A stretch of 64,000 nucleotides of DNA. Source: Branchiostoma floridae. Taxonomy: Eukaryota; Chordata; Leptocardii; Amphioxiformes; Branchiostomatidae. How positions within the stretch are numbered: the stretch's first letter is position 1; each line of letters opens with the position of its first letter. The stretch is from assembly GCF_000003815.2 (NCBI RefSeq), contig NC_049983.1:12100283-12164282 (forward strand), written 5' to 3'. A program made the translations under genes and the position numbers. Shown piece after piece: positions 30,401 to 54,740 of this stretch. Below the pieces are notes generated by a model that had not been told where the DNA came from, searched no databases, and worked only from the letters and a program-made list of their open reading frames with translations.

Positions 30401-33400
30401 AGCATCTTTGTCTTCTGGTTCAGAAGCTCCTGTGGTTCGCCACCCAAAAAACAAGGTACAACATTCCAACACAAATCCACAAAGCAAGATGTGAAAGGAG
30501 TGTATTTTTGCTATGTATGTCACCAGAAATGTAGTAGTATCTATTATTAAATGTTTCCCACAAATACAGCATGCAAGTTGTATGTTTCCCTATCATGCAA
30601 AGTGTAATCTAATTAAAGCTCACACAAGAAATAGCCCAGGAGATATGATAATAGACAAAGCAAATGCCCACTCCATACCAACTGGTCTTCAGTTTAAATA
30701 GCACTAGTGATACAGACATTGCTATATACAACTGGCCTGCAGGTATGTTTCTGACATTGAGAGAAGAGAGCTGCCACAGTTCGGTGCCTAGAAGTGGTCA
30801 ATGGCCTTGCACTGAGCAAACAAAAAAACCTTTGTACACATAACGAATAGAAGATTTGCAAATACACTGTTGCTTCCAGATCAGTATACATAAAACCATC
30901 TCTGACCTCCTTCCTCCTCTGCTCGTGCAGTTCCCTGTCGAACTGGTCCTGTAAGGTCTGCCTCTCCCTGGCTAACCGCTGCTCCTCCTCCGCCTCCTCC
31001 CGCGCTCGCCGCTCCCGCTCCTCCCGCTTCACCCGCTGGCGCTCCTCAACCTGCTCCTGGATCGCTCTCTGGAGGATTGGCAATCAATCTGTTTGTTTGT
31101 TTATTCATTTTGCACATAAAAACAATAAAAATAGTAAAGAAAAGTGAAGTAAAGAAAAGTGCTGGAGGAGGGGAGAAGCCTGCATGGCTTGTACAAAGCT
31201 GTTATTCATCAATCTCTAAAGCCTGCATCACAATTTAAGCAAGTGCCAGCCAAATTTTTAGATCAGCTGGAGCTTGCTAAATTGTCACAAATTGGACTGG
31301 GCTCAGTATGTCATTCCAGAAAGTTTAAGTTACTGTCTTTTCTGCCTTTTTTGTAGCCTCCTTCACCGGCCTCTCTGGGAATCTTGGCAATTTTTTTTTT
31401 CGGGGGGTAGGTTGATTCGCGATTTTTAACCGGGAATATTATGCCGGGAAAGGAACATATGTCGGGAAAGGAATATGCACCGGAAAGCTTGTACGGGCTA
31501 GGCGAAATCGGCTTCCCAGTAGGCCTGCTACTTGTCGCTATCTACAAAGCCCCATTAAAAAACACTTATCACCATTTGGTATGGATGTGCGAACTTCCCG
31601 TCATAAACGCATCCAGCACTGGCAGCCCGCCACACAACCCGTCACGCGATGACCCGTAACTTTGTAACGGTCGTCGGGTCACGCATTTCAAACCACGGCT
31701 CATTTGAAAACGAGTACTTACCGTAGAAAAACTCCGCTGAAACTTCCCATCAAGTACGAAAGAGCAAGGGCCGAACGGGCAGCCAGGGAAATCTTTTTAA
31801 GTAACTCTCGCCCCCTCCACCATTCAGATTGCCGGTCGGATCATCGATGGTGTATATAAAAGCAAGGATTTCTTAACCTCCTTGATAAAAGTATGTTTTT
31901 AAACCCACTGGTCCCAGTGACACATGCACATTAAGACAAAAAAAATGTTTTACACTGATCTGAAATGTAAGTTTTTCACGTCTATCAATTATTCAAACTC
32001 CGGAAGTGACAAAGGCAGGCAGCGTGTGCACGGTTTCCGGTAACGTTACGTAGGCTTGTGGCACGCTTCGGGGTGGCCGTACACTATTAACGTTGACGTG
32101 TGAAGTGCTTGTCGCGATGCTGTGAATTACTTCTCGCGACAGTGTGAATAACTTCTCGCGAATACATTAATTGGCCGTCTGAAAGGCATTCTTAATCTTT
32201 ATTGCGTTTGTAGATAGCGACAGGTAGCAGGCCTACTGGGAAGCCGATTTCGCCTAGCCCGTACAAGCTTTCCGGTGCATATTCTTTTCCAGACATATAT
32301 TCCTTTCCCGGCATAATATTCCTGGTTAAAAATCGCGAATCGACCGTCAGCCGTACTTTGGGTTAAGTTAAACTTATCCCAGCTAACTATCTGCTAAATC
32401 TGACTACAGGTGCTACATGTATATGATGAAGGAGTTATTCTATGCCTGACCTTATGTTCCAGGTCCTTCAGACGTCTTCTTTCCAGTTCCTCCAGCTGGG
32501 CAGGGTCCTTCAGCGCTGCGCCAGTCCGTAAAAAGTTTCTGTGTGAAAATATTATAAAGATACATAAAAGATACTCATGTTAACAGTAGAAACCTTATAC
32601 CAGTACACAGGGTTAGGACAGGAGATGTCTCCAAGTCTGCCAGGGCTCCTGGTGGGTAACATGACCAATGACAGCAAGGTTAGACAAGTAAGAACCAATA
32701 CCAGGAGGCAAGATGACTAATTTTAGGTTTTGACTATTTCTGATGAAAGGGTACGCTAGACTGAAAAGTGAAGGAAGATAGTTATAAGGCAGAGGTGAAG
32801 GAATGGTCTGGGACAGCCAACTGGATCAATGGCAAGGAAGAGGCGGTAAGCCTACATCTAATCAATAATAGACTATGGCAGAATTCTACAATAGGTATAG
32901 GAATTTCTAAAATACTGTCTGGCAAAATGCATCAATGAAATGATGAGGGACTGAATAAGGAAATATCACATCAGTGCTGGTAGAAGTGCATCTGTGCTAA
33001 CCATCTGTAGGTTAGGTGCTGTTTAAGTGATGAGGAAATGACAAAGATTTAGTCACACATAATGATTCTTCCGTGCACAGCTCATACAGGCATGTTATGT
33101 GCAGATTACTACAGTGCAAACCCTGACCAGTGGACCACATGTGTGAGGGATAGAATGTTTTAGTGGCAGTCACCATGGCAACAAATACTCACACAGAGTC
33201 ATCATCAGGGTGTGTGGGTTCAGCTCTGCAACACAGGTTAACACATGGGGAGTCATGCCAACGGAAACGTAAAGCAGCCTCAGGCAAGCATCAATTTTTC
33301 ACAACCACAAGAAAATTAGAACGTACATGTATTATATTGGTTATGCAGTAGAACAGGTTGCATTGCATTGATTATGAGGTTAACGTGTAATTTGACTTAA

Positions 33401-41586: not shown

Positions 41587-41830
41587 GTCATCTCCTTCAT
41601 AATACCCCCTGTAGCATCAGCGAATAGACTCCGACAAATGTGTATCTATATGTTGTTCACAATCGCAGAATTCAGCCCGTTAATCCGATCTTCCAGTCCT
41701 GCCTACAATGTTATTCTGCCCAGTGGTATTTGAGGTATTATGGCCTCCGTTTAACGGCGGCGCGCACACAATAAGCGCCACGCTACTATTGGTCAATCCC
41801 ATCGGTGAGGATAGTTTCGTCGACGGCAGT
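41587..41830 (-). promoter_or_regulatory. CCDC66: Candidate CCDC66 promoter, overlapping the left arm of the inverted repeat
   Basis: Only about 157 bp separate the CCDC66 ATG from the left end of the large inverted repeat at 41743. Read on the - strand, the arm supplies GATTGACCAATAG (a CCAAT box, near 41790-41802), a CpG-rich GGCGGCGCGC stretch and ATGGCGGAA (YY1-like). These are typical TATA-less promoter parts, so the promoter probably overlaps the repeat arm. Confidence 0.45.
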
Positions 41831-42065
41831 ACAGCAGTTCCGCCATAATTCAACATTTGAGCGCATAAAACACGGCCTTTTAGAGCATACTCATGCTATG
41901 TAAGCCCTTAAACAGGTAGGTCCTTTTCTATATGATTCTAAGAAACATAAGTAATCGGAATTGACCCGAGCTTATGGTTCAAAACAGTAACTTTGTTACG
42001 CATATTTATCCCGGAAGCAAGTCGCTTCCTTGCCCCTAGTTAGTCCCTCATTCATCGGTTAAATT

Positions 42066-42811
42066 TTAGCTCTCTAGAGACCAGATAACACACCTTACAG
42101 GTAATATTTGCGTGGCTCTTAGCTCTTGGGACCAGGTAACACACCTTACAGGTAATATTTGCGTGGCTCTTAGCTCTTGGGACCAGGTAACACACCTTAC
42201 AGGTAATATTTGCGTGGCTCTTAGCTCTGGGGACCTGGTAACGCACCTTACAGTTTATATTTGTGTGGCTCTTAGCTCTGGGGACCAGGTAACACACCTT
42301 ACAGGTAATATTTGTGTGGCTCTTAGCTCTGTGGACCAGGTAACACACCGTACAGGTAATATTTGCATGGCTCTAAGCTCTGGGGACCAGGTAACACACC
42401 GTACAGGTAATATTTGTGTGGCTCTTAGCTCTGGGGACCAGGTAACACACCTTACAGGTAATATTTGTGTGGCTCTTAGCTCTTGGGACCAGGTAACACA
42501 CCGTACAGGTAATATTTGCGTGGCTCTTAGCTCTGAGGACCAGGTAACATACCTTACAGGTAATATTTGTGTGGCTCTTAGCTCTGGGGACCTGGTAACG
42601 CACCTTACAGGTAATATTTGTGTGGCTCTTAGCTCTGGGGACCAGGTAACACACCTTACAGGTAATATTTGTGTGGCTCTTAGCTCTGGGGACCAGGTAA
42701 CACACCGTACAGGTAATATTTGTGTGGCTCTTAGCTCTTGGGACCAGGTAACACACCGTACAGGTAATATTTGTGTGGCTCTTAGCTCTGGGAACCTGGT
42801 TACCCACCTTA
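42066..42811. repeat. 51-bp tandem array, left arm (about 15 units)
   Basis: The unit contains GGTAATATTTG, TGGCTCTTAGCTCT and GGGACCAGGTAACACACC; copies are spaced exactly 51 bp apart. Two more diverged units follow the inserted MITE (about 43145-43255). Because 51 is a multiple of three, the array stays open in frames on both strands, giving artificial ORFs of up to 265 codons. These are not proteins. Confidence 0.92.
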
Positions 42812-43144
42812 GGCCACACCAATTTAATTTCTTGGTTCACGGATTCGCTCGCTCCTATGTTTTGGGAAATAAAATAAAAAATTACCACTCAGCAAATTTT
42901 CACCATTAATGAAACCATTCACCAGCTTTCTGGTGTAGCAAATTGGCCTTTATATTATAAGCTCCTTAAAGTGTGGATACAGGTGCTGTTACTGTACAAT
43001 AAGTGTTTTTGTACTTTTTTGGATTAGCCATTACCTTTACCCCAACCATTTTACAATTTTTTTTTTTTTAATTTTTATTTCGCCCTCTCGCTCCATATTT
43101 TTTATGAAAATCTCCGTGAACCACGAAATTAAATTGGTGTGGCC
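42812..43144. mobile_element. 333-bp MITE, PIF/Harbinger-like, inserted in the array
   Basis: The ends are GGCCACACCAATTTAATTTC and, inverted, GAAATTAAATTGGTGTGGCC, with the match continuing to about 30 bp (GGTTCACGGA). TTA flanks both ends (42809-42811 and 43145-43147), a 3-bp TWA target duplication as made by PIF/Harbinger transposases. The host 51-bp repeat resumes on the far side with TTACAGGTAATATT, which confirms the boundaries. It has no coding capacity. Confidence 0.85.
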
Positions 43145-44724
43145 TTACAGGTAATATTTTTGTGTCTATTAACTCTAGGGACTAGATAAGGCACCTTACA
43201 GGTAATATCTTTGTGGCTTCTAGCTCTGGGTACCAGGGAACACAATTCTGCATTCACAGTACATTCAAATAATTGTTTTGTTGCTTGTTTTCACTGTACA
43301 TGTTTAGCTGGAGGCACGTTCTGTAGCCAGATGCTTCTTATTAAATCTAAGGAGAGTAAGCTATTTTACATTTCTCTAGCAGCACAGACCCACTGGTCAG
43401 ACCACTGGAACAAGATTGATGGCCAATACATGTTCTATATCTTGTCTTGCCTGTGTGATTAGAATTTTTGTACATTGTTTCAGATGGAGATTGTCACTAA
43501 GAAAATGAAGAGTCATCAGGGAAGGCTTGCCACAGACCCACACTGATGTAGACTTGAGTCAACCAGGCGAACTGAGTTGCATTTGCTTATGAGGTAACAA
43601 GGACACAGAAAACATATTCTTAACAAAAGATACACGAACTAAGATCTTGGAACAAAGTCAAGGATAGGTTCCACTTCTCGCTTCTTGCAGGTATGAATGT
43701 ATGGAAAGGATGGAGCTTATATTACATTGTTTGTCTAATTGCGTATTTAAAGTAACATAATTTTTCCTGTGCTATGTTGATATTAGAAGATATGGAACAT
43801 ATATTGTATGCAATTGAGGCTATTTATCTTTGTTGTATAATACCGTCTGCAACAATATGACATCCATCTTCATTCTTATTTAGATCACAATTTTTACAAC
43901 TTCTTGGCTGCACAGGAGTCTGTAATGTGCACCTTTTAGTTTTTAGACATTGATTTTGTGTGAAGTATCTGGAGATTTGTGATGGATTTTCTATGTCATG
44001 TTATATATTTATTATTTTGTGCACAATTCTCCTAGCCTAGGTCGTACTCTGTATGTTTGTAATTTGTTGCACATGACAATGACAATGTGAGACATTTGGC
44101 TACTGTTATGTGAAATGATAATATCCAAAGTGTACATGTAAATATGTTCAGGTTGACTTCTTTTCTGTTAGCAGTGGAAAAGGAAGGGTCCAACGTATCA
44201 TGTAATGAGTAGGTTCTTTGATGTTGAGAGGTGTTAATATTTTCCAACAGTGAACATGACAACATTGTTATGGTATTTGGTGACAATATTTAGTTTGAAT
44301 AGCTCAATTCTTACATGATGTTTTTGTAAAAAAAACACGAAAGTTTTTGCAAAGAACTTAGAAGATGATACGAAATGTCTTTTGTCTCCCAAAGTTTTTT
44401 ATATTATATACATGTACTTTTGTGCAAATTGTGTCACAGAGCGAAGGAGATAGTGAATTAAGTATGTTTACATTACCTACTGGTGCACAATGAAGTTCTT
44501 ATTAAAATGTGAACCTATACCGATTCATTAGACTATTGCTTCAAGTTTCTTTTGTGTTAAGTAATTTTATTTGATGCTTCTCGGATTTTTTCAGAAAAAT
44601 ATTGGGGTGGGCGGTCGAAAAAAAAAGGAAAATAAAATTTTGCAAAAAGTGTTGGGTGAACATATGAGGCTTTAATATATTACACAAAAAAGCAAGGTTA
44701 GTAATCAAGATTTCAGCGTTTCGT

Positions 44725-45856
44725 CTAAAAAATTATTCCGCACCCAATAAAGTTAGTTTGAAGAAAATCAGACATCGTTTCGCGAAAGCATTTTTTATGC
44801 GAAAAAATGCTCTTTTTGCCTCAGAAGGGCAAATTAAGATTTTTTGACCAAATTGTTGCATATTTGATGTAAAAAAATTATTCCGCACCTAATAAAGTTG
44901 GTTTGAACAAAATCGGACATTGTTTCGCGATATCAATTTTTTATGCGAAAAAATGCACTTTTTGCCTCAGAAGGGCAAATTGAGATTTTTTGACCAAAAA
45001 ATTGCATATTTGATGTGAAAAAATTATTCCGCGCCCAATAAAGTTGGTTTGAACAAAATTGGACATTGTTTCGCGATATCATCTTTTTATGCGAAAAAAT
45101 GATCTTTTTGCCTCAGAAGAGCAAATTGAGATTTTTTTACCAAAAAATTGCATATTTGATGTCAACAAATTATTCCGCACCCAATAAAGTTGGTTTGAAC
45201 AAAATCGGACATTGTTTCGCGATATCATCTTTTTATGCGAAAAAATGCTCTTTTTGCCTCAGAAGAGCAAATTGAGATTTTTTGACCAAAAAATTGCATA
45301 TTTGATGTGAAAAAATTATTCCGCGCCCAATAAAGTTGGTTTGAACAAAATCGGACATTGTTTCGCGATATCATTTTTTTATGCGAAAAAATGCTCTTTT
45401 TGCCTCAGAAGAGCAAATTGAGATTTTTTTAACCAAAAAGTTGCATATTGGATGTGAAAAAATTATTCCGCACCCAATAAAGTTGGTTTGAACAAAATCG
45501 GACATTGTTTCGCGATATCATTTTTTTATGCGAAAAAATGCTCTTTTTGCCTCAGAAGAGCAAATTGAGATTTTTTGACCAAAAAGTTGCATATTGGATG
45601 TGAAAAATTATTCCGCACCCAATAAAGTTGGTTTGAACAAAATCGGACATTGTTTCGCGATATCATTTTTTTATGCGAAAAAATGCTCTTTTTGCCAAAG
45701 ACGAGCAAATTGAGATTTTTTTACCAAAAAATTGCATAGTTGATGTCAAAAAATCATTCCACACCCACTAAAGTTGGTTGAACAAAATTGGATATCGTTT
45801 CGCGATATCTTTTTTTCTGCAAAAAAATGCTCTTTTTGCCTCAGAAGAGCAAATCT
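44725..45856. repeat. Satellite-like tandem array, period about 146 bp, nearly 8 units
   Basis: TTCCG (TTCCA in the last unit) recurs at 44736, 44881, 45027, 45173, 45319, 45466, 45611 and 45757, so the spacing is 145-147 bp. Each unit holds two potential hairpins: TTTCGC...GCGAAA around GATATCATTTTTTTAT, and TTTGCC-TCAGAAG-GGCAAA. In later copies the second hairpin decays to AGAGCAAA. AT-rich and noncoding. The last unit runs directly into a Penelope-like coding remnant. Confidence 0.9.
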
Positions 45857-46235
45857 GAGCGATCACTCAAGACCAGGGTCCTTGAGCACAGACTCCCGAG
45901 TTCAACAACCTCAGAAGTTTCCCAACATATTCATATAGAATCGCCTGGTCATTCGGTCTCAAAGGACAAAGTTAAAATCTTGGACATAGAGCCTGACTAT
46001 TTTGCTAGAGGGATCAAAAAAGCCATCTACATCAGAGCTTTACAACCATCCCTATTTAAAACAGAGACATAGCCTTCCTGCAACCTATGATCTGAGCTTG
46101 CTGAGTCACGCGTTCTATTCAGTATTTGCTAAAGATGACGTCACGACAGCAGTGGATTGTTCATCTCTTGACAAAGACTGGTGCTGTTCAGTCGAAAATT
46201 TGGATGAGGCCAATTTTTGTGTTGGATATTACAGT
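45850..46235 (+). pseudogene. Decayed Penelope-like element fragment (GIY-YIG endonuclease end)
   Basis: The reading frame after the satellite gives SLKTRVLEHRLPSSTTSEVS and then EPDYFARGIKKAIYIRALQP. This pattern (R-x-x-E-H near the front, R-x-I-K-x-A-I-Y-I-R-x-x-x-P-S-L at the back) is typical of the C-terminal half of the GIY-YIG endonuclease of Penelope-like retroelements. A TAG follows near 46069, and the downstream sequence continues in another frame (LPATYDLSLLSHAF), so it is frameshifted. The reverse transcriptase part is absent. Confidence 0.6.
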
Positions 46236-49200
46236 TAGAATAGTTCAATAATGACTGAACTACCAACGCAGATGAACTTTCAAATTAAAAGAAAAATGCA
46301 ATTGTGCGTGATGCGCTTCAAATTGACCTTGATTTACCCATGCGAAACATGGATGTCACGATGCGGCCACGCGGCGAGCGCGCAACTTTAACATGTTTGT
46401 TTTTCACCTTGTTTTTTTTTCTTCATATTTATCACACATATTCATGTGGACTTATGTAGCCTCTCTTTGAAATCCCAATTCGACATGAAACATTCGTTTC
46501 CAAGTAACTCTCAGTTAAAGTTTTGGAGACTTGGCATCTATGATAACCTATTTCTCGCAACTTTACAGTAAATGTTGAAATTTCTACAAATATGAGAGGT
46601 ACCACATAAAAAGGAACCAGTGATATCACTGAAAGGCCAGTGATGTCACTAAAAGGGTATGTTGTGTGTGGCTCTTATTGCATCTCTTGTAAAGCTTTAT
46701 TTCGCTGCAGTCAAGCCACCATGAATAAATAGTGGTCTTTCGAAAAATACTTGTGCGGGACACTGAATCTTTTGAAGGAAAATTACTATTAAGTGTCGTT
46801 TATGTCTCTTCTACAAAACAAAAACGGTTTCTCTCAAGTTTGGCTGGCATATCGATGTATATTATCATTATTGTTACATAGATGAATTTAATTGGGGGTA
46901 ATATTTACTTATTGATATAAAGTATCTCCAAGCACATCGACAGCAAGCGCCCAGGAAGGAAGTGGAAACGAAAGACTTGACCAAATGGAACATCACGATT
47001 AAATTTGGCACTCGTTCTGCTGATCACGATCATCATCATTGAACAGGCGGTTTTAGAACTCGTCAAAATACAATGACACACCGCGGCAGGGCAAATCCTG
47101 TAGTTCCGCCAGGATATAGAATGTCGCCATTATATATAACTTGTATGTGTATTCATCAATGCGCACTATGAAGGCTATCTGACAAATGGAATATCAAGAT
47201 ACGTATTTTTGCCAATTGTGCAGATAACAATTCATGAATAGTGGGTTTTTAAACGTCGACAAATGACACCGATAAGCGCCACCTGCTGTACAGATATCGC
47301 ATGAGCTGAATAATGAAGAAAGATGAATCGCCTATATCTGCAATTAGATAGACGACAGAGCAAAACCGCTTAAAGTACATATAGATCAGTATATTAGCCT
47401 ACCGTGGTGAAAATTTCATTGACAGACACCGATTTTTCCTCGTTTCATGAAGTAAATCGCACTCCCGTCATGCGGGGTTCAAATCGGACTAAAATTGCCT
47501 AAGTGGAACATAGCGGTCGGAGTGCGCTCTCACGTTTTTGCCGACACGTCAGTGGTTTTCATACCTCTCTTAGGGAACGACAGATTTCTACCAAATTTGG
47601 TCGGCATATACATGAAAACCTACTTAGTCGCTGTATGAATTCTCATTTAATCATTTTGATTGGTTATTGAGTTTTGAGCTGTTGACGTTTGGAAAATAAA
47701 AGTCCAAAGTGGACTTTGTAGCACAACTCACGGGTATACCGAGTGTAACCACTCACAAAGGAAAGTGCTGATATCGCCGAAATACCCTTAGCAGAGTTAT
47801 ATAAAATTTTGTGCCTATTTCAGGTTGGAAATCCCTAACCCGACATCATTTTGTAATGTCGGACTTTCCGGACTTTGGACTTTTGTGAGATCACAAAAAC
47901 TGACGACTTCGACAGATAAATGGACTCGGTATATCTTTAAACAATTGCAAAATAACGAAAGAGTAACATTTCTAGCAACACAGATAGCTCAGTATATTAG
48001 CCAACCGTTGCCAAAGTATTAAGTGAAAAATACCACTCGCACTCGTTTGATAGGAAAACCTCGTTTGATAGGACTATTCGGCAAATGGGGGTTGGAACGC
48101 GAGTTCCGTGATCCGGACGTGAACGTTTAGAACTTCATCTGCCTCATTAATGTTATGAGAATCGGATTTCTTTCAAATTTGGCTGAAATATTTATAAATG
48201 CTTGCAAAGTCGCTGTGCCAATTGCTATGCTGAAATCATGGATCATTATCGTGTTACTTGTTACTGGGTAACTTTGTAATCAGTGGTCTCAAACACAAAC
48301 CCACCTCCGCTGGTTTCCAAAACAGAGTGCCTACTAAGCCCTATTATTTTGGGTACATAATCCACACACATAAACGCGTACACTTTATTCATACACCTCC
48401 ACATTATGCTGGATACTACTACTACACTTGGGGTGGATATCGCTTCGTCGTACGTGCAACTGCGTGCTGTCTACGTACAAAACGTGGGCGATCCTTTGGG
48501 ATCTGTACGAGGAGTGATCAATAAGTCCTTGGCCTCACCCAGAAATAATGATGAAAGTTATTTGCAAGTTCTTGCCCGAGGGCTAATTGAAACATGAAAC
48601 ATACAGAAAATATAGTAAACATGCATAAAATAACTTAAAAACACTTTGGTATAGATAACAATGGTGACAAGTCTAGAAAAGTGACTATTCTATCAATGAT
48701 ATGGACTGCTGAGAGCTACAATCTACGCATTTGGGGTTTGATTTCTTTTCAGTGGAAGACGAAGTACCCCACCCTTTTCTATAATGAGTGGGTTATGTGA
48801 CGTTAACAGCGTTATAGTTTTGTTTTCGTCAGTAAGCGTTTGGAAATTTTTGTGTTCTGCATGCCTCTTCAAATAACTCCTTTCTTTCCTGGTCATTAGA
48901 GAGGCAGTTAGAAATAAAATGTATTTCGTCTTCCACCGGTTTTGCAATACAATGGTTACATGCTCTTTCGCCCACAGGTAGCTTTTTGTACCGCCCTTTC
49001 TCAATTTCAAGGGGGTGAGCGCTAATTCTAAGTTTCCCCCTTGTCGATCTGACCACGAATTTATCTAGTAACGTTAAATAAGTTATCATTGAGTATCCCT
49101 TCTTTTATAGTTTCTTAAAAATCTTAACTTACCATTACCTGTAGACAGTCTATGAGAAAATGTCTGGATATATATATCTTTCAACCCTTTTCTTAGCGAT

Positions 49201-49835
49201 GTACATATATGCTTGTTGTCTAACCACGAATCCATAGAGTTCCATAAAAAAGAGCAACCAGTATTGTCTAGAATTTCCTTTACGTGTAACAAGCACAACT
49301 CATATTTCGAAGCATAGATGTCAAGTATTAAGTCTTCATGAATGTGCACCGAAATTCAAATTATTGTGATCATTACTTTTTGTAACGTTAGGTAAGGTAG
49401 ATGGGGAAAACGTGGACAATTATGCTGCGACCTGAGGTGTGCGGGTCAAGTTGCGCTGCTGGAAGTTTGACACCCACTTCTTTCATCATGATCAAACATT
49501 TTGACAATGTCTTTTGTTAATGACAACGACTTATGGCATAGGGAACTCGACCCACGCGTCTGATCACAATTCATCCTTGTTTTTCTCGCCACTTACCTTC
49601 TGATTTGCAAAAAAAAAACCGAATGCCTGGAAAGTAATGACTGCAATGGTTTGAAATTTGGAGGATATTGATAGAAGACTTGATACTACGAAGCTGTGAC
49701 TCAAAATTTGAGTTGTGCTTATTCTTTCTGGATGAGGCCAAGGACAGAGATCGTACGTACAACGCACTTACCACTTGCGCCACCAACGATGCACCCAACC
49801 GCTCACGGCCAGGCGTGGCATGGCCTCTCTGCTCT
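45857..49835. other. Interior of the inverted-repeat block, mostly unassigned
   Basis: Apart from the Penelope-like and LINE remnants, this stretch is AT-rich and without recognised genes. Short local duplications occur, for example two CTCGTTTGATAGGA copies near 48040-48075. No transposase-like frame was found on either strand. Confidence 0.5.
48723..49349 (-). pseudogene. Decayed 3' end of a non-LTR retrotransposon
   Basis: Three overlapping - strand frames follow one another: 49349-49086, 49089-48829 and the end of 49010-48723. The middle one reads LRISAHPLEIEKGRYKKLP, then CNHC and EDEIHFISNC, a C-x2-C...H-x4-C zinc-knuckle typical of the C-terminus of many invertebrate LINE polymerases. 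The last frame ends with a FQTLTDENKTITLLTS-like tail. At least two frameshifts separate the pieces, and the catalytic reverse transcriptase domain is missing, so this is a 5'-truncated dead copy. Confidence 0.65.
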
Positions 49836-50284
49836 CAGAGCTAAGAGCCACGCAAATATTACCTGTAGGGTGTGTTACCTGGTCCCCAGAGCTACGCGCC
49901 ACGCAAATATTGCCTGTAGGGTGTGTTACCTGGTCCCCAGAGCTAAGCGCCACGCAAATATTGCCTGTAGGGTGTGTTACCTGGTCCCCAGAGCTAAGCG
50001 CCACGCAAATATTGCCTGTAGGGTGTGTTACCTGGTCCCCAGAGCTAAGCGCCACGCAAATATTACCTGTAGGGTGTGTTACCTGGTCCCCAGAGCTAAG
50101 CGCCACGCAAATATTACCTGTACGGTGTGTTACCTGGTCCCCAGAGCTAAGCGCCACGCAAATATAACCTGTACGGTGTGTTACCTGGTCCCCAGAGCTA
50201 AGAGCCACACAAATATTACCTGTAAGGTGTGTTACCTGGTCCCCAGAGCTAAGAGCCACGCAAATATTACCTGTATGGTGTGTT
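49836..50284. repeat. 51-bp tandem array, right arm (about 9 units, inverted)
   Basis: Same unit as the left arm but in reverse complement: GTGTGTTACCTGGTCCCCAG, then AGCTAAGCGCCACGCAAATATT. Spacing is 51 bp. The units here are more alike than in the left array and carry GCGCC or GAGCC variants, suggesting independent homogenisation. Confidence 0.92.
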
Positions 50285-50499
50285 ATACGTAAAATTTAAC
50301 CGATGAATGAGGGACTAACTAGGGGCAAGGAAGCGACAGTCGCTTCCGGGATAAATATGCGTAACAAAGTTACTGTTTTGAAACATAAACTCGGGTCAAT
50401 TCCGATTACGTATGTTTCTTAGTATCATATAGAAAAGGACCTATCTGTTTAAGGGCTTACATAGCATGAATATGCTCTAAAAGGCCGTGTTTTATGCGC

Positions 50500-50745
50500 T
50501 CAAATGTTGAATTATGATATTGTAAGCGAACAGCATGGCGGAACTGCTGTACTGCCGTCGACGAAACTATCCTCACAGATGGGATTGACCAATAGTAGCG
50601 TGGCGCTTATTGTGTGCGCGCCGCCGTTAAACGGAGGCACCTATAGCTCGGTATTTGGTTGCCCGAAAAATGGCGTCGTAACGACAGGTTACGGACATGC
50701 GCAGTTCTGTTTAGAGCGTCACTTAGCGAACTTCAGGTGAATTGC
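50500..50745 (+). promoter_or_regulatory. Promoter-like right arm end, possible first exon donor
   Basis: Read on the + strand, the right arm gives ATGGCGGAA (YY1-like), GATTGACCAATAG (CCAAT) and a GCGCGCCGCCG stretch. Just outside the arm comes ACATGCGCAG (NRF-1-like), and about 40 bp later CTTCAG/GTGAAT, a possible splice donor. This mirrors the CCDC66 promoter. It could drive a + strand transcript toward the TRIM gene 2 kb away. No exon is proven. Confidence 0.3.
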
Positions 50746-52730
50746 AGGGAGGGTAATTTCTGTGTTTGGATTGTAATATTCAACCAAGGAGATTTTGACA
50801 AAACCTATAGGACGTTTTGATAAAACCTCATTGATTCAATTTCATTGAGACTATATCAGTGTATTACAATGCAAATGATCCACAATTAAGTATCTTGTTA
50901 GCATAGCTCATATCAATGCATCGTCTCTTCTTTCCCAATACAGAAGTTGCAAGTTCACATATGTTGCAAATATCCTTCTTCAGAAAGCAACGGTATTTCC
51001 TCATTAATTATGCAAATGATGGAAAAACAATAATTTATGTGTTAGATGATATTGGTCTTTATCTGACATTAACCTACGTGTACCACTAGTATGAACATGC
51101 CATCATTTACCATTGCTGCCATTGTCGGCTATTAAATGACATCTATTTTCGAGGGCCGCTTCATATCAATATACCAGCGGTGCTGCATGCGCCATCGTTC
51201 CCATGACAACGGCTCTTACTTCCCGTTTGGCTTGCTTTCATACCAAGAATAGCTGCAAGAGAAAAGAGCCTCGTGACATGTGCACGACAGAGAGGAAACC
51301 TTTGCCTGCTGTGCTTCCTTCTTTAATTGCGGTCTTTTCATTTTCGCCTCAGGCAGACGATCGAGACTCGTAGTTTATGGAATGACGACGGTCATTTCAA
51401 TATTGTAGCAAAACGTTACAATGCGTCTGCATTTTAATATTGTAACAAAAACTCCGGACAGAAATCTCGAGGAATAACAGTAAGACCTTTAAGTGGTTTA
51501 TGGAATGACGACAGCCATTTCAATATTGTAGCAAAACGTTACAATGCGTCTGCATTTTGATATTGTAACAAAAACTCCGGACAGAAATCTCGAGGAATAA
51601 CAGTAAGACCTTTAAGTGGTTTATGGAATGACGACAGCCATTTCAATATTGTAGCAAAACGTTACAATGCGTCTGCATTTTAATATTGTAACAAAAACTC
51701 CGGACAGAAATCTCGAGGAATAACAGTAAGACCTTTTCACATATGCAAGTCTCCTGAAGCCCCAGTAATTGAGGCTTTTTCCTGTACACCTGTTGCACAC
51801 GGTAAAACGTGACTTTTGCCTCCCTCCAATCAGTGATTCCAGACGTTTCCGTGAGTGAAGACATGCATGCAAGTCACGACACACTGAAGCACTGATGGCG
51901 ACAATAAAGCAATTGGCTTGCAATGCGAGCATTCCTGGTTGGTGCTAGCTGGAACTGATTGTCTAAGATGTTTACATACTATGAAATGAAGACATGCTCA
52001 CTTACAGATGTGGTCACTCGCAGAAATCATATACGATTGATATTCGGATAGCTTTAAAGTTTAAATTTGCCAGGTAGGCCTTTGAAGATAAACAATAACA
52101 CGGCTTCAAAAGCATGTCGTGGTATGTTCCTGTGTAACATGTTTGTCACGCGTCCGAACGGACGTGCATATGTTTGGAAGTTATGTGAAAGTTATTACAT
52201 ACAGTATTCATGAACGGGTTGCCACGCGTCACTCGGTCGTTGTATAGAATCTATTTATATCACAAAAAGTATGTTAGAATTGATGAGTCTACCTCAGTAT
52301 AACATGGCTCGTGTAACAGTTGGTAAAAGGGCTTGTAATAGTATGATTGCAAAAACGCCTCAGCATATTTCGGTCATGTAGTGTTTTTCCCCAAGGACAC
52401 AGCCGCTATGCAGCCTTTGCAAGTGCCGCGATATGTTGCATGTGTCCTTAGGTTGGGGTTTACAGGTGCATTAATATTGATGGCCTTCTTCAAGCGGTAA
52501 AAGCTGGCATGAATGATTTCGCAAGGAATGTATAATTTGGTGAACCCAGAAGGCTCAGAAATCCCATTTTCCCCCGAGGCCGGTGATAATAAGATTCTCA
52601 CGACTTGAACAATGCCGCCTCGTACCGCCGGTCCCCATGGAAACCGTGTTTGCTTTCCGGACGAGAGGAGAGCTACCTGACGTCACAGCTGACGTGCTCA
52701 TGCGAGTGGGTGTCCCGTTCCCTCACAAGT
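50746..52730. other. Upstream region of the TRIM gene, no other gene
   Basis: AT-rich spacer with one tandem repeat (51375-51738) and no frame with family features. It should contain the promoter of the TRIM gene; no TATA box or clear core element was picked out. Confidence 0.5.
51375..51738. repeat. Three tandem copies of a 123-bp unit
   Basis: TTATGGAATGACGAC begins at 51375, 51498 and 51621, exactly 123 bp apart. Copies are almost identical; the first differs slightly at its start and the third ends where the sequence changes after CAGTAAGACCTTT. Each contains two short TAATATTGTA-like or CAATATTGTA-like segments. The near identity implies recent duplication. Confidence 0.92.
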
Positions 52731-54740
52731 ATGGCAGCTGGACTCGTTAGCGAGATTAATGAGGAGTTTCTAGTCTGTCAGATCTGCTATAACGACTTCG
52801 ACCGCCCGAAGATTCTTCCGTGTCTTCACACCTTCTGTCAGCCATGCCTGGAGAAGCTTTTTGCCGCCCAGGCGGACAGGAACCTGTCGTGCCCCACCTG
52901 CCGGCAGGAACTGTACTTGCCCCCGCACGGTGTGCAGGGGCTAAAGGACAACTTCCTAGTGTCCAAACTCCGTGACGTCGTTACCAAACCAGGAAGACCG
53001 CCGGCAAACGCACAAGACGTCACCATATGCCGCGTCTGTTCGACTGGTACGGGCGCTACCTTCTACTGTGTGGACTGTCGGGAATACCTGTGCCAGGTGT
53101 GTACGGACGCCCACCGCCGACTCAAGCTCACACGGGCACATAACATTGTAGCCACAGGCAACTCTAGTCCCGTTATGGCTGACCGTGGGGACAACAACAC
53201 TTCAATGTGCACAAGGCACGGCGAAATCAACAAATTTCACTGCGACACCTGCCATCTGGTAATCTGTCTGCACTGTGTTGTTACCGCCCACAAGGAACAC
53301 AGGTATGTGGAAATAGAGGAGGTGGCGGAGAGGGAGAAAAAGAACGTAAGGCGACTCCTGCCTGTAGCCCGGGGGATCGCGTTTCTACAACAAGCTAAGC
53401 TCAATGAAATGCATTCATTGAAGCAGAAATGGGACGCCCGTGTTGACCAGACTGTAAGCACTGTGGAGGCTCGGGCGAAACTAATGATAGACGCCATACA
53501 AGAGTTAAAGCAAGCCAAAATCAGTCATATCCAAGCGCTATACGCGGCGAGTAAGAAGGAACTGGTTTCGGCAGTGCAGGCGGCGGAAGAGAATCTCAGT
53601 TCCGCTAAGAGTTTCGTCCAGTTCGCGGAGAGCATGGACGATAATGGCACTCCTATGGAGGTGTTTACCCAAGCACGTGACCTCACAGGTAGACTACAGA
53701 GGTACATAGACAATGATAATAAGGGGAAAGTCGACGTTTCTAGTTCTTTGATGGACATTCAGTTTTCCTCAACTGTCACAGAGGGGGCAGAAGAACTGGA
53801 CCGTCTGTTCGGCAGTTTGTCTATCAGAGCGCCAATGCCGGAACCTTGGCCGACTCTACCGACAATTCCGTCTGAAACGCCTTATGAAACGCCCAAGACT
53901 GTCGCCAAGCCTAGCCGGACGCTGAACCCCACGGGAACCGCACGGCTATCCACAGCCTTGGGTAAGAGGGGGAGCGGGGACGGAGAGTTTGACTGGGCGG
54001 CGTCCGTGTTTGTCAACAACGAAGGTTTCATCATCGCGACGGACGTCCGGAACAAACGCCTGCAGGTGATGGACGAGGAGAACCTGTACGGAACCATTAA
54101 CCTTGGCTTTGAACCGTGGGACGTGGCCTGCAAGGACAACGGCGACCTCCTGGTCACCGGAGATGGACACTCCATTCACGTGCTGGACAACCAAGGTAAG
54201 GAGAAGGAAACCATCAATGTGGAGGGGTTCAGGGAGAAGGACAAGCCCTCCCGAGGTATCGCGGTGGACAGGCTGGGCCGGATCATCGTGTCTATCGGGT
54301 GGCAGGTGTTCGTGCTGCTGCCGGACGGCACGCCGGTCCACACCCTCGCCTCCTCCTCACACCAGCTCTTCGGTAACCAGCTCCGCCTCACCACCAACAG
54401 CGACAGTCAAGTCATCGTCAGCGACTGGAGAAACGATATTATCAAGGTGTTCGGACAAAACGGAGAGTTCGTAAAAGAGTTTGGGCTGTACGGGTCCGGG
54501 GATGGGTACTTCGACTATCCAACCTCCGTCCACACGGACGACCACAACAACATCATCGTGGCGGATAGCAAGAACCACCGAGTGTCGCAGTTCAGTAAAG
54601 ACGGGACGTTTGTGCGCCACCTGTTGTCCCGGGATAACGGGCTGTGGCACCCGCAAGGTGTGGCCATCACTCCCGACGGGAAACTTGTCGTCTCGGACAG
54701 AAGCGAAAACAGTTGTGTCAAGGTCTACACTATTGACTAA
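52731..54740 (+). CDS. Single-exon TRIM-NHL protein (RING, two B-boxes, coiled coil, NHL)
   Basis: Predicted E3 ubiquitin ligase and possible RNA-binding regulator of the TRIM2/3/32/71 type. The 669-aa product has a C3HC4 RING (C16, C19, C31, H33, C36, C39, C54, C57), B-box 1 (C100, C103, C113, C116, C121, C124, H128, H137), B-box 2 (C160, H163, C171, C174, C179, C182, H187, H190), a coiled coil of about 195-330, a proline-rich linker, then NHL repeats from about 420 to the end (for example NKRLQVMDEE, SDWRNDIIKVFGQNGEFVKEF, ADSKNHRVSQFSKDGTFVRH). There is no filamin domain, unlike human TRIM2/3. The frame stays open upstream to 52605, but the first in-frame ATG is 52731, directly before the RING. 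No introns. Large intronless TRIM families are known in lancelets. The exact orthologue is unclear. Confidence 0.9.
   Translation: MAAGLVSEINEEFLVCQICYNDFDRPKILPCLHTFCQPCLEKLFAAQADRNLSCPTCRQELYLPPHGVQGLKDNFLVSKLRDVVTKPGRPPANAQDVTICRVCSTGTGATFYCVDCREYLCQVCTDAHRRLKLTRAHNIVATGNSSPVMADRGDNNTSMCTRHGEINKFHCDTCHLVICLHCVVTAHKEHRYVEIEEVAEREKKNVRRLLPVARGIAFLQQAKLNEMHSLKQKWDARVDQTVSTVEARAKLMIDAIQELKQAKISHIQALYAASKKELVSAVQAAEENLSSAKSFVQFAESMDDNGTPMEVFTQARDLTGRLQRYIDNDNKGKVDVSSSLMDIQFSSTVTEGAEELDRLFGSLSIRAPMPEPWPTLPTIPSETPYETPKTVAKPSRTLNPTGTARLSTALGKRGSGDGEFDWAASVFVNNEGFIIATDVRNKRLQVMDEENLYGTINLGFEPWDVACKDNGDLLVTGDGHSIHVLDNQGKEKETINVEGFREKDKPSRGIAVDRLGRIIVSIGWQVFVLLPDGTPVHTLASSSHQLFGNQLRLTTNSDSQVIVSDWRNDIIKVFGQNGEFVKEFGLYGSGDGYFDYPTSVHTDDHNNIIVADSKNHRVSQFSKDGTFVRHLLSRDNGLWHPQGVAITPDGKLVVSDRSENSCVKVYTID

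Follow-up and report, generated by a model that had tools for sequence, protein, structure and literature searches.

The 64,000-nucleotide window of the Branchiostoma floridae genome analysed here (contig NC_049983.1, positions 12,100,283 to 12,164,282 of the forward strand) contains a CCDC66 gene on the minus strand near 31 kb, an open reading frame (ORF) of 715 amino acids with RING, B-box and NHL repeats at 52593-54740 and, between the two, a large element with inverted arms. The CCDC66 identity proposed in a preliminary description of this DNA is upheld by Pfam (PF15236, E 2.7e-8, above the cut-off). The same description had placed an inverted block with 51-bp arrays at 41743..50638; the block is real, with slightly wider limits of 41732-50649 (8,918 bp). 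Each arm is composed of an outer domain of about 340-360 bp followed by a 51-bp tandem array of variable length, and the termini read GAGGTA.../...TAGCTC. We are highly confident that this element is a foldback-type DNA transposon of the cut-and-paste kind, non-autonomous and inserted recently; the foldback reading had already been suggested from the sequence and is now borne out by five near-identical copies at unlinked sites, within perfect 7-bp target-site duplications that all differ.

The search proposed in the preliminary description, that of a terminal domain against the whole genome, was carried out with the left outer domain as query in the same B. floridae assembly (513,431,437 bases, 431 contigs). 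It revealed paired inverted ends with target duplications at several unlinked places, the outcome that had been named as support for a transposon. At least 15 outer-domain matches were recovered; twelve of them form six inverted pairs with 8-15 kb between the partners, and three stand alone. They include five young copies, which are the one in the window (W), C4a (C4:21.18M), C5b (C5:16.90M), C8 (C8:13.40M) and C19 (C19:7.19M), as well as an old copy of 15.2 kb, C1 (C1:11.89M), and a small one, C4b (C4:1.764M); C3:24.51M and C2:0.42M gave single matches only and were taken as relics. The young copies have most of their interior in common and lie in unrelated flanks. All five are enclosed by perfect 7-bp duplications (GGTATTT, TTGTGAG, CACTACT, GTTTTGA and GACATTT), and 7-bp duplications also surround C1 (ATAAGAC) and C4b (ACCAACC). 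A 26-base pattern spanning both termini, with three mismatches allowed, occurs at 12 places in the genome, every one of them in a known copy (backwards control, 0). Interior fragments 98-100% identical to the element, with C8-like internal deletions, were also seen at G000:C3:7775900-7776403, a place without an outer-domain match.

Outer domains of the same side are more alike between copies (left 98.8-99.7%, right 97.3-99.7%, gaps uncounted) than left domains are to right ones (94.3-98.3%), which indicates that the copies moved as one unit. Substitutions between the five young copies amount to 0.18-0.89% (10 pairs over two blocks of 1.0-1.5 kb, 20 of 20 comparisons). Heterozygosity in amphioxus is given as 3.2-4.2% in an excerpt of PMC12500494; a divergence of the young copies below this level would fit very recent movement. 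With so few substitutions, current activity of the family can be tested through empty sites. The arrays vary freely in size: W, C4a, C5b, C8, C19 and C1 carry 15, 5, 15, 12, 12 and 24 plus-strand units and 9, 13, 19, 4, 41 and 34 minus-strand units, respectively, counted with up to 14 mismatches in 51 positions and subject to distortion by assembly gaps or collapsed repeats.

The copy in the window is flanked by the duplication GGTATTT at 41725..41731 and, in identical form, at 50650..50656 (plus strand). Its left outer domain (41732..42071, plus strand) starts with GAGGTATTATGGCCTCCG, is without about 21 bp present in the other left domains and is 99.1-99.4% identical, gaps uncounted, to those of the four other young copies. 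The right outer domain (50286..50649, minus strand) ends in ...CACCTATAGCTC and is 98.6-99.1% identical to those of C4a, C5b and C19; the value against C8 is 97.3%, taken on a fixed 345-bp slice since the inner border of the C8 domain was not found. The two domains of W are, as first noticed, reverse complements over more than 300 bp (349 nt at 91% with gaps; without gaps, 95% over 115 nt and 97% over 175 nt). This is far beyond chance, the 15 genomic matches of the terminal domain having E values from 5e-165 (the domain itself) to 2e-40. The left one has a CCAAT box, read as ATTGG on the plus strand, at 41788..41792 (minus strand), and the right one a CCAAT box at 50589-50593 and a CGCCAT at 50535-50540 (minus strand).

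The left 51-bp array (42072..42811, plus strand) holds 14.5 copies and the inverted right array (49836..50285, minus strand) 8.8, close to the 15 and 9 units originally estimated. The right terminus closes with the hexamer TAGCTC, which is also present at 13 of the 14 junctions between units in the left array; its mirror image, GAGCTA, appears at nine places spaced by 51 bp in the right one. Outside the arrays TAGCTC recurs at 44300 and 47985 and, mirrored, at 48713, and the agreement over six bases may be a coincidence. Within the left array lies a nested inverted-repeat insert of 331 bp (GGCCACACC...GGTGTGGCC, 42812..43142) with TTA on both sides, which separates the array from about two diverged 51-bp units at 43143..43244 (plus strand). 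The insert occupies the same position in C4a, C8, C19 and C5b (in the last around an assembly gap). Pieces similar to it also occur in C1, in C3, as a second copy in C19 and in the second family described below.

The interior consists of two unique blocks on either side of a second tandem array, of 146-bp units (44727..45859, plus strand, 7.8 copies), which was absent from the preliminary description and is also present in C5b, in the old copy C1 and in the second family. Block 1 (43245..44726) is homologous to the second family, and its six frames gave no Pfam family. In block 2 (45860..49835) the six frames yielded only two Pfam matches, both below the cut-off, and no transposase; short overlapping ORFs at 48723..49355 (minus strand), without Pfam support, may be the remnant of a LINE-type reverse transcriptase tail, to judge from what we take to be its motif.

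Two interior probes recovered a second family, in which the parts follow one another as in the first: a GAGGTA end, a diverged outer domain, a 51-bp array, homologous unique sequence and a 146-bp array. Its left limit is sharp at GAGGTAACTCC, with unrelated flanks in the two copies compared. The copy at C6:6177066-6191138 (14,073 bp) has inverted arms 93% alike over 1.4 kb and a duplication CGCGTGA; it runs from an outer domain of 213 bp through a 51-bp array, unique sequence, a 146-bp array and again unique sequence to a 51-bp array, and for the most part its unique stretches match those of W at 80-92%. It also holds a 353-amino-acid ORF that we assume, from its motifs, to be reverse-transcriptase-like. 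Among the 51-bp arrays of the family, the left one of the C13 copy has 36.7 units and the right one of the C6 copy 23.6. Further duplications are AAATTTTG (8 bp, C13), CACACTG (C4) and AGTGGAA (second C6 copy), so that all four copies with both ends on a chromosome have one (three of 7 bp, one of 8 bp); the C2 copy, the right end of which was not reached, stands outside this count. Taking both families together, both ends were seen in 12 elements, and 11 of these lie within perfect duplications, which measure 7 bp in ten cases and 8 bp in one. Homology of the outer domains between the families rests on C4b, because this comparison alone exceeds all shuffles: the C6 domain aligns with C4b from the first base with a score of 64, attained by none of 1000 shuffles (best 54; reverse-complement control 35). 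The score against C1 was reached by 14 of 1000 shuffles, and the comparison with the right domain of W gave no evidence of homology (score 31, reached by 303 of 1000 shuffles; reverse-complement control 37). A further dispersed family (L047, L048) resembles parts of the element within 46805-48271 at 75-85%, and no Pfam match was found in six frames of L047:1900-6401.

Several observations weigh against the interpretation of the element as a transposon mobilised in trans. No transposase was found in the stretches scanned with Pfam (six frames and selected ORFs), which in the element gave sub-cut-off matches only; for a large part of C1 and for the left halves of the second-family copies, the coverage consisted of ORF lists alone. 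In the C6 copy of the second family, L046:700-4601 contained no transposase by Pfam, the remainder being covered as ORF lists. Assembly gaps interrupt C5b (1,512 N), C8 (464 N), C19 (100 N) and C1 (five gaps), so a gene could hide there. The young copies are incomplete matches to one another, C19 being without about 48639-49835 and C8 without parts of 47355-48201. A second-family copy at the end of the small contig C299, where seven bases can be compared, has mismatching flanks and no duplication. Finally, a search with the 18-base tip found no autonomous partner, and mobilisation in trans is our inference.

That search, with up to two mismatches, returned 34 places in the genome (backwards control, 2), seven of them belonging to the first family. 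Sixteen of the other 27 were examined in context: at ten, the homology runs through the supposed end and the match belongs to an unrelated dispersed motif, and the other six are single places or lie inside other repeats, no partner end having been sought where the context was 400 bases. The last 11, for which the matched letters were inspected, all read GGTATTATGGCATCCG like the dispersed motif. This motif, GGTATTATGGCATCCG(g/a)tggaattatgagagttgatg with variants, is unrelated to the element ends (L028, L029, L030, L031, L032, L036, L040-L043). A MULE transposase was likewise not found in six frames of the scanned stretches, gaps and unscanned stretches remaining, and a non-autonomous copy need not carry one. 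The genome contains three matches to P-type transposases; one locus (L058, 892-3192; G000:C19:10310191-10312491) has a P-type transposase-like frame of 767 amino acids with an internal 39-bp tandem repeat.

The preliminary description had offered, as the alternative to a foldback element, that a CCDC66 promoter was duplicated locally in inverse orientation. The position of the element between CCDC66 and the RING/B-box/NHL ORF and the CCAAT and CGCCAT motifs of its outer domain speak for this origin; we nevertheless reject it as almost certainly wrong, since four other, unrelated loci carry the same arms and most of the interior, with the left domain 99% alike and inside perfect duplications. 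The low copy number and very high identity of the family could also suggest segmental duplications produced by host recombination. Such an origin is highly improbable and is ruled out by the target duplications, because in 11 of the 12 two-ended elements a perfect duplication of 7 or 8 bp, different at each site, directly adjoins the terminal GAG/CTC. Membership of the P superfamily, as a non-autonomous, Galileo-like element, is a further proposal and one that we regard as rather unlikely. Ends of P elements start with CA, whereas those of both families here start with GAG (GAG...CTC); no transposase was found inside the element, and around the best P-type match (C19:10311853), the one of the three that was inspected, the surrounding 6 kb contain no inverted ends with a 7- or 8-bp duplication. 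The long arms with tandem repeats, the P-type transposase genes in the genome and the duplications, which like those of Galileo (PMC4168063, in excerpt) are of 7 bp and exceptionally of 8, point in the other direction.

The small copy C4b is 379 bp long, consists of the outer domain alone (GAGGTATTATGG...TTAAATTTACCTC) and ends in GAGGTA...TACCTC; it is either an ancestral small element or an extreme internal deletion. The outer domain might have started as a small transposon in its own right, two inverted copies of which then enclosed captured DNA and so made up the large element, a scenario that we hold tentatively and find somewhat doubtful on balance. It accounts for a complete outer domain with its own 7-bp duplication, for the inner end of C4b, which stops at the point where the array starts in large copies, and for the TAGCTC at the inner edge of the left domain (42067), which resembles the right terminus. 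Internal deletion of a large copy would, however, yield the same product, just one small copy was found, and TAGCTC is present at 44300 and 47985 as well, away from the arrays. A precedent for deletion exists in the available part of PMC4079207, where DAIBAM is proposed to be the internal-deletion product of a Tetris-like element.

The preferred reading, a foldback transposon moved in trans, implies a mechanism that we can sketch. A transposase whose gene lies elsewhere, or in copies or gaps that the assembly does not show, would recognise the termini, repeated subterminal sites in the 51-bp units, or both, and would cut 7 bp apart (once 8). The units may be repeated binding or end-like sites, and slippage, or unequal exchange from unit to unit, would lengthen and shorten the arrays. 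Promoter-type DNA may be favoured for insertion. The hairpin or double-stranded RNA suggested for the inverted arrays is structurally possible.

Regarding target choice, the host flank of W carries, outside the element, two motifs that we take to be YY1-type (AAAATGGCG, 50667-50675, plus strand) and NRF1-like (CATGCGCA, 50696-50703, plus strand); the names given here to the CCAAT and CGCCAT motifs are assumed in the same way. These flanking motifs at 50667-50703 may belong to the RING/B-box/NHL ORF. They were first noticed beside W and C1, and the tests on the first family are therefore post hoc: of the seven sites, three have an NRF1-like motif and two a YY1-type motif within 50 bp, compared with 52 and 86, respectively, of 10,573 background points. 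The second family, an independent set in which two of six sites are one-sided, has the YY1-type motif within 50 bp at 3 of 6 sites and the NRF1-like one at none. In a search that specified no motif in advance, ATGGCG (the YY1-type core) ranked first among 6-mers around the 13 sites at distances of 40, 60 and 100 bp, and second at 150 bp. It lies within 60 bp of six of the 13, compared with 123 of 2,979 background windows; when 13 background windows were drawn at random 2,000 times, 9 draws had an equally extreme 6-mer at 60 bp. The background was 181 kb from the window and other stretches of the same genome and was not promoter-matched, so that a general taste for promoters is as likely an explanation of these 13 sites as a taste for ATGGCG. 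A literature search on YY1 or NRF1 in transposon insertion preference found no paper.

The promoter-like character attributed to the terminal domains survives in part. CCAAT (or ATTGG) is present in all eight aligned outer domains of both families, in columns that differ (base 56 in W, base 87 in the second family, both in C4b), so the boxes do not all share one aligned position. CGCCAT lies 41-71 bp inward of CCAAT in six of the eight domains (three second-family arms, W left, W right and C1 left) and is absent from C4b and C1 right. The arms might mimic promoters and in this way direct integration, with a YY1-like host factor, or a transposase domain of the same specificity, binding both the ends and host promoters and tethering insertion beside ATGGCG; we consider this improbable, the more so as the full CGCCATnTT occurs in only four of the eight domains. 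If it were true, two giant foldback families without a transposase would home to core promoters via a motif that they carry themselves. The insertion bias itself, if kept in more copies, would link end sequence to target choice.

Two other repeats were observed in the window. Three 123-bp tandem units with 98% matches lie about 700 bp to the right of the element (51373-51736), and the CCDC66 gene region contains an inverted pair of 139 nt (31410-31548 / 32207-32345), 96% complementary and 658 nt apart.

Foldback elements with arrayed arms occur in flies, nematodes, sea urchin and plants. The sea-urchin TU elements and the FB elements of Drosophila, which make duplications of 8 and 9 bp, resemble the amphioxus element by description, not by sequence, in their inverted arms with internal tandem repeats. 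No report of a foldback transposon in Branchiostoma or amphioxus was found in the literature searched, repeat databases not having been searched. Foldbacks of sea urchin and Drosophila are cited in PMC4079207 (excerpt). Two other groups were set aside by their duplications, ends or targets. Mutator elements have duplications of 8-11 bp in the excerpted text of PMC6446971, compared with ten of 7 bp and one of 8 bp here. Dada elements, as outlined in part of PMC3706591, make duplications of 6-7 bp, lack terminal inverted repeats and target small RNA genes; the amphioxus element has long inverted ends, and no Rfam match was found in the window at gathering scores, the other insertion sites not having been searched. 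Tm1, a Mutator/foldback element of root-knot nematodes, shares composite arms, variable-number tandem repeats and asymmetric terminal motifs, and differs in its repeats of 13-15 bp, its duplications of mostly 9 bp and a known transposase-encoding group (PMC3169594, in part).

The closest parallels are Tetris and Galileo. Tetris of Drosophila virilis, as presented in the portion of PMC4079207 at hand, has an outermost flanking domain, tandem repeats in long inverted arms and a middle without apparent coding, with few complete copies, variable array size, no autonomous copy found and a related small element, DAIBAM, made largely of ends. Its repeats are about 220 bp and its duplications 8-10 bp, whereas here the repeats are 51 bp and the 11 duplications measure 7 bp with a single exception of 8 bp, and the amphioxus element, at 8-15 kb, has a second, 146-bp array. 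Galileo, according to extracts of PMC4168063, has long inverted arms able to hold direct tandem repeats, abundant non-autonomous copies and duplications of 7 bp, with a few of 8, the lengths found here; it also has copies with a P-type transposase and a preference for GTATTAC, neither of which was seen in the amphioxus element, and membership of Galileo or the P superfamily is not shown. The two amphioxus families thus look like foldback elements mobilised in trans, of unproven superfamily, with long inverted arms made partly of tandem repeats and target duplications at unlinked copies (11 of 12), most similar to Tetris in plan and to Galileo in duplication length. What they add to these known systems is a pair of sister families with homologous 51-bp and 146-bp arrays and diverged outer domains.

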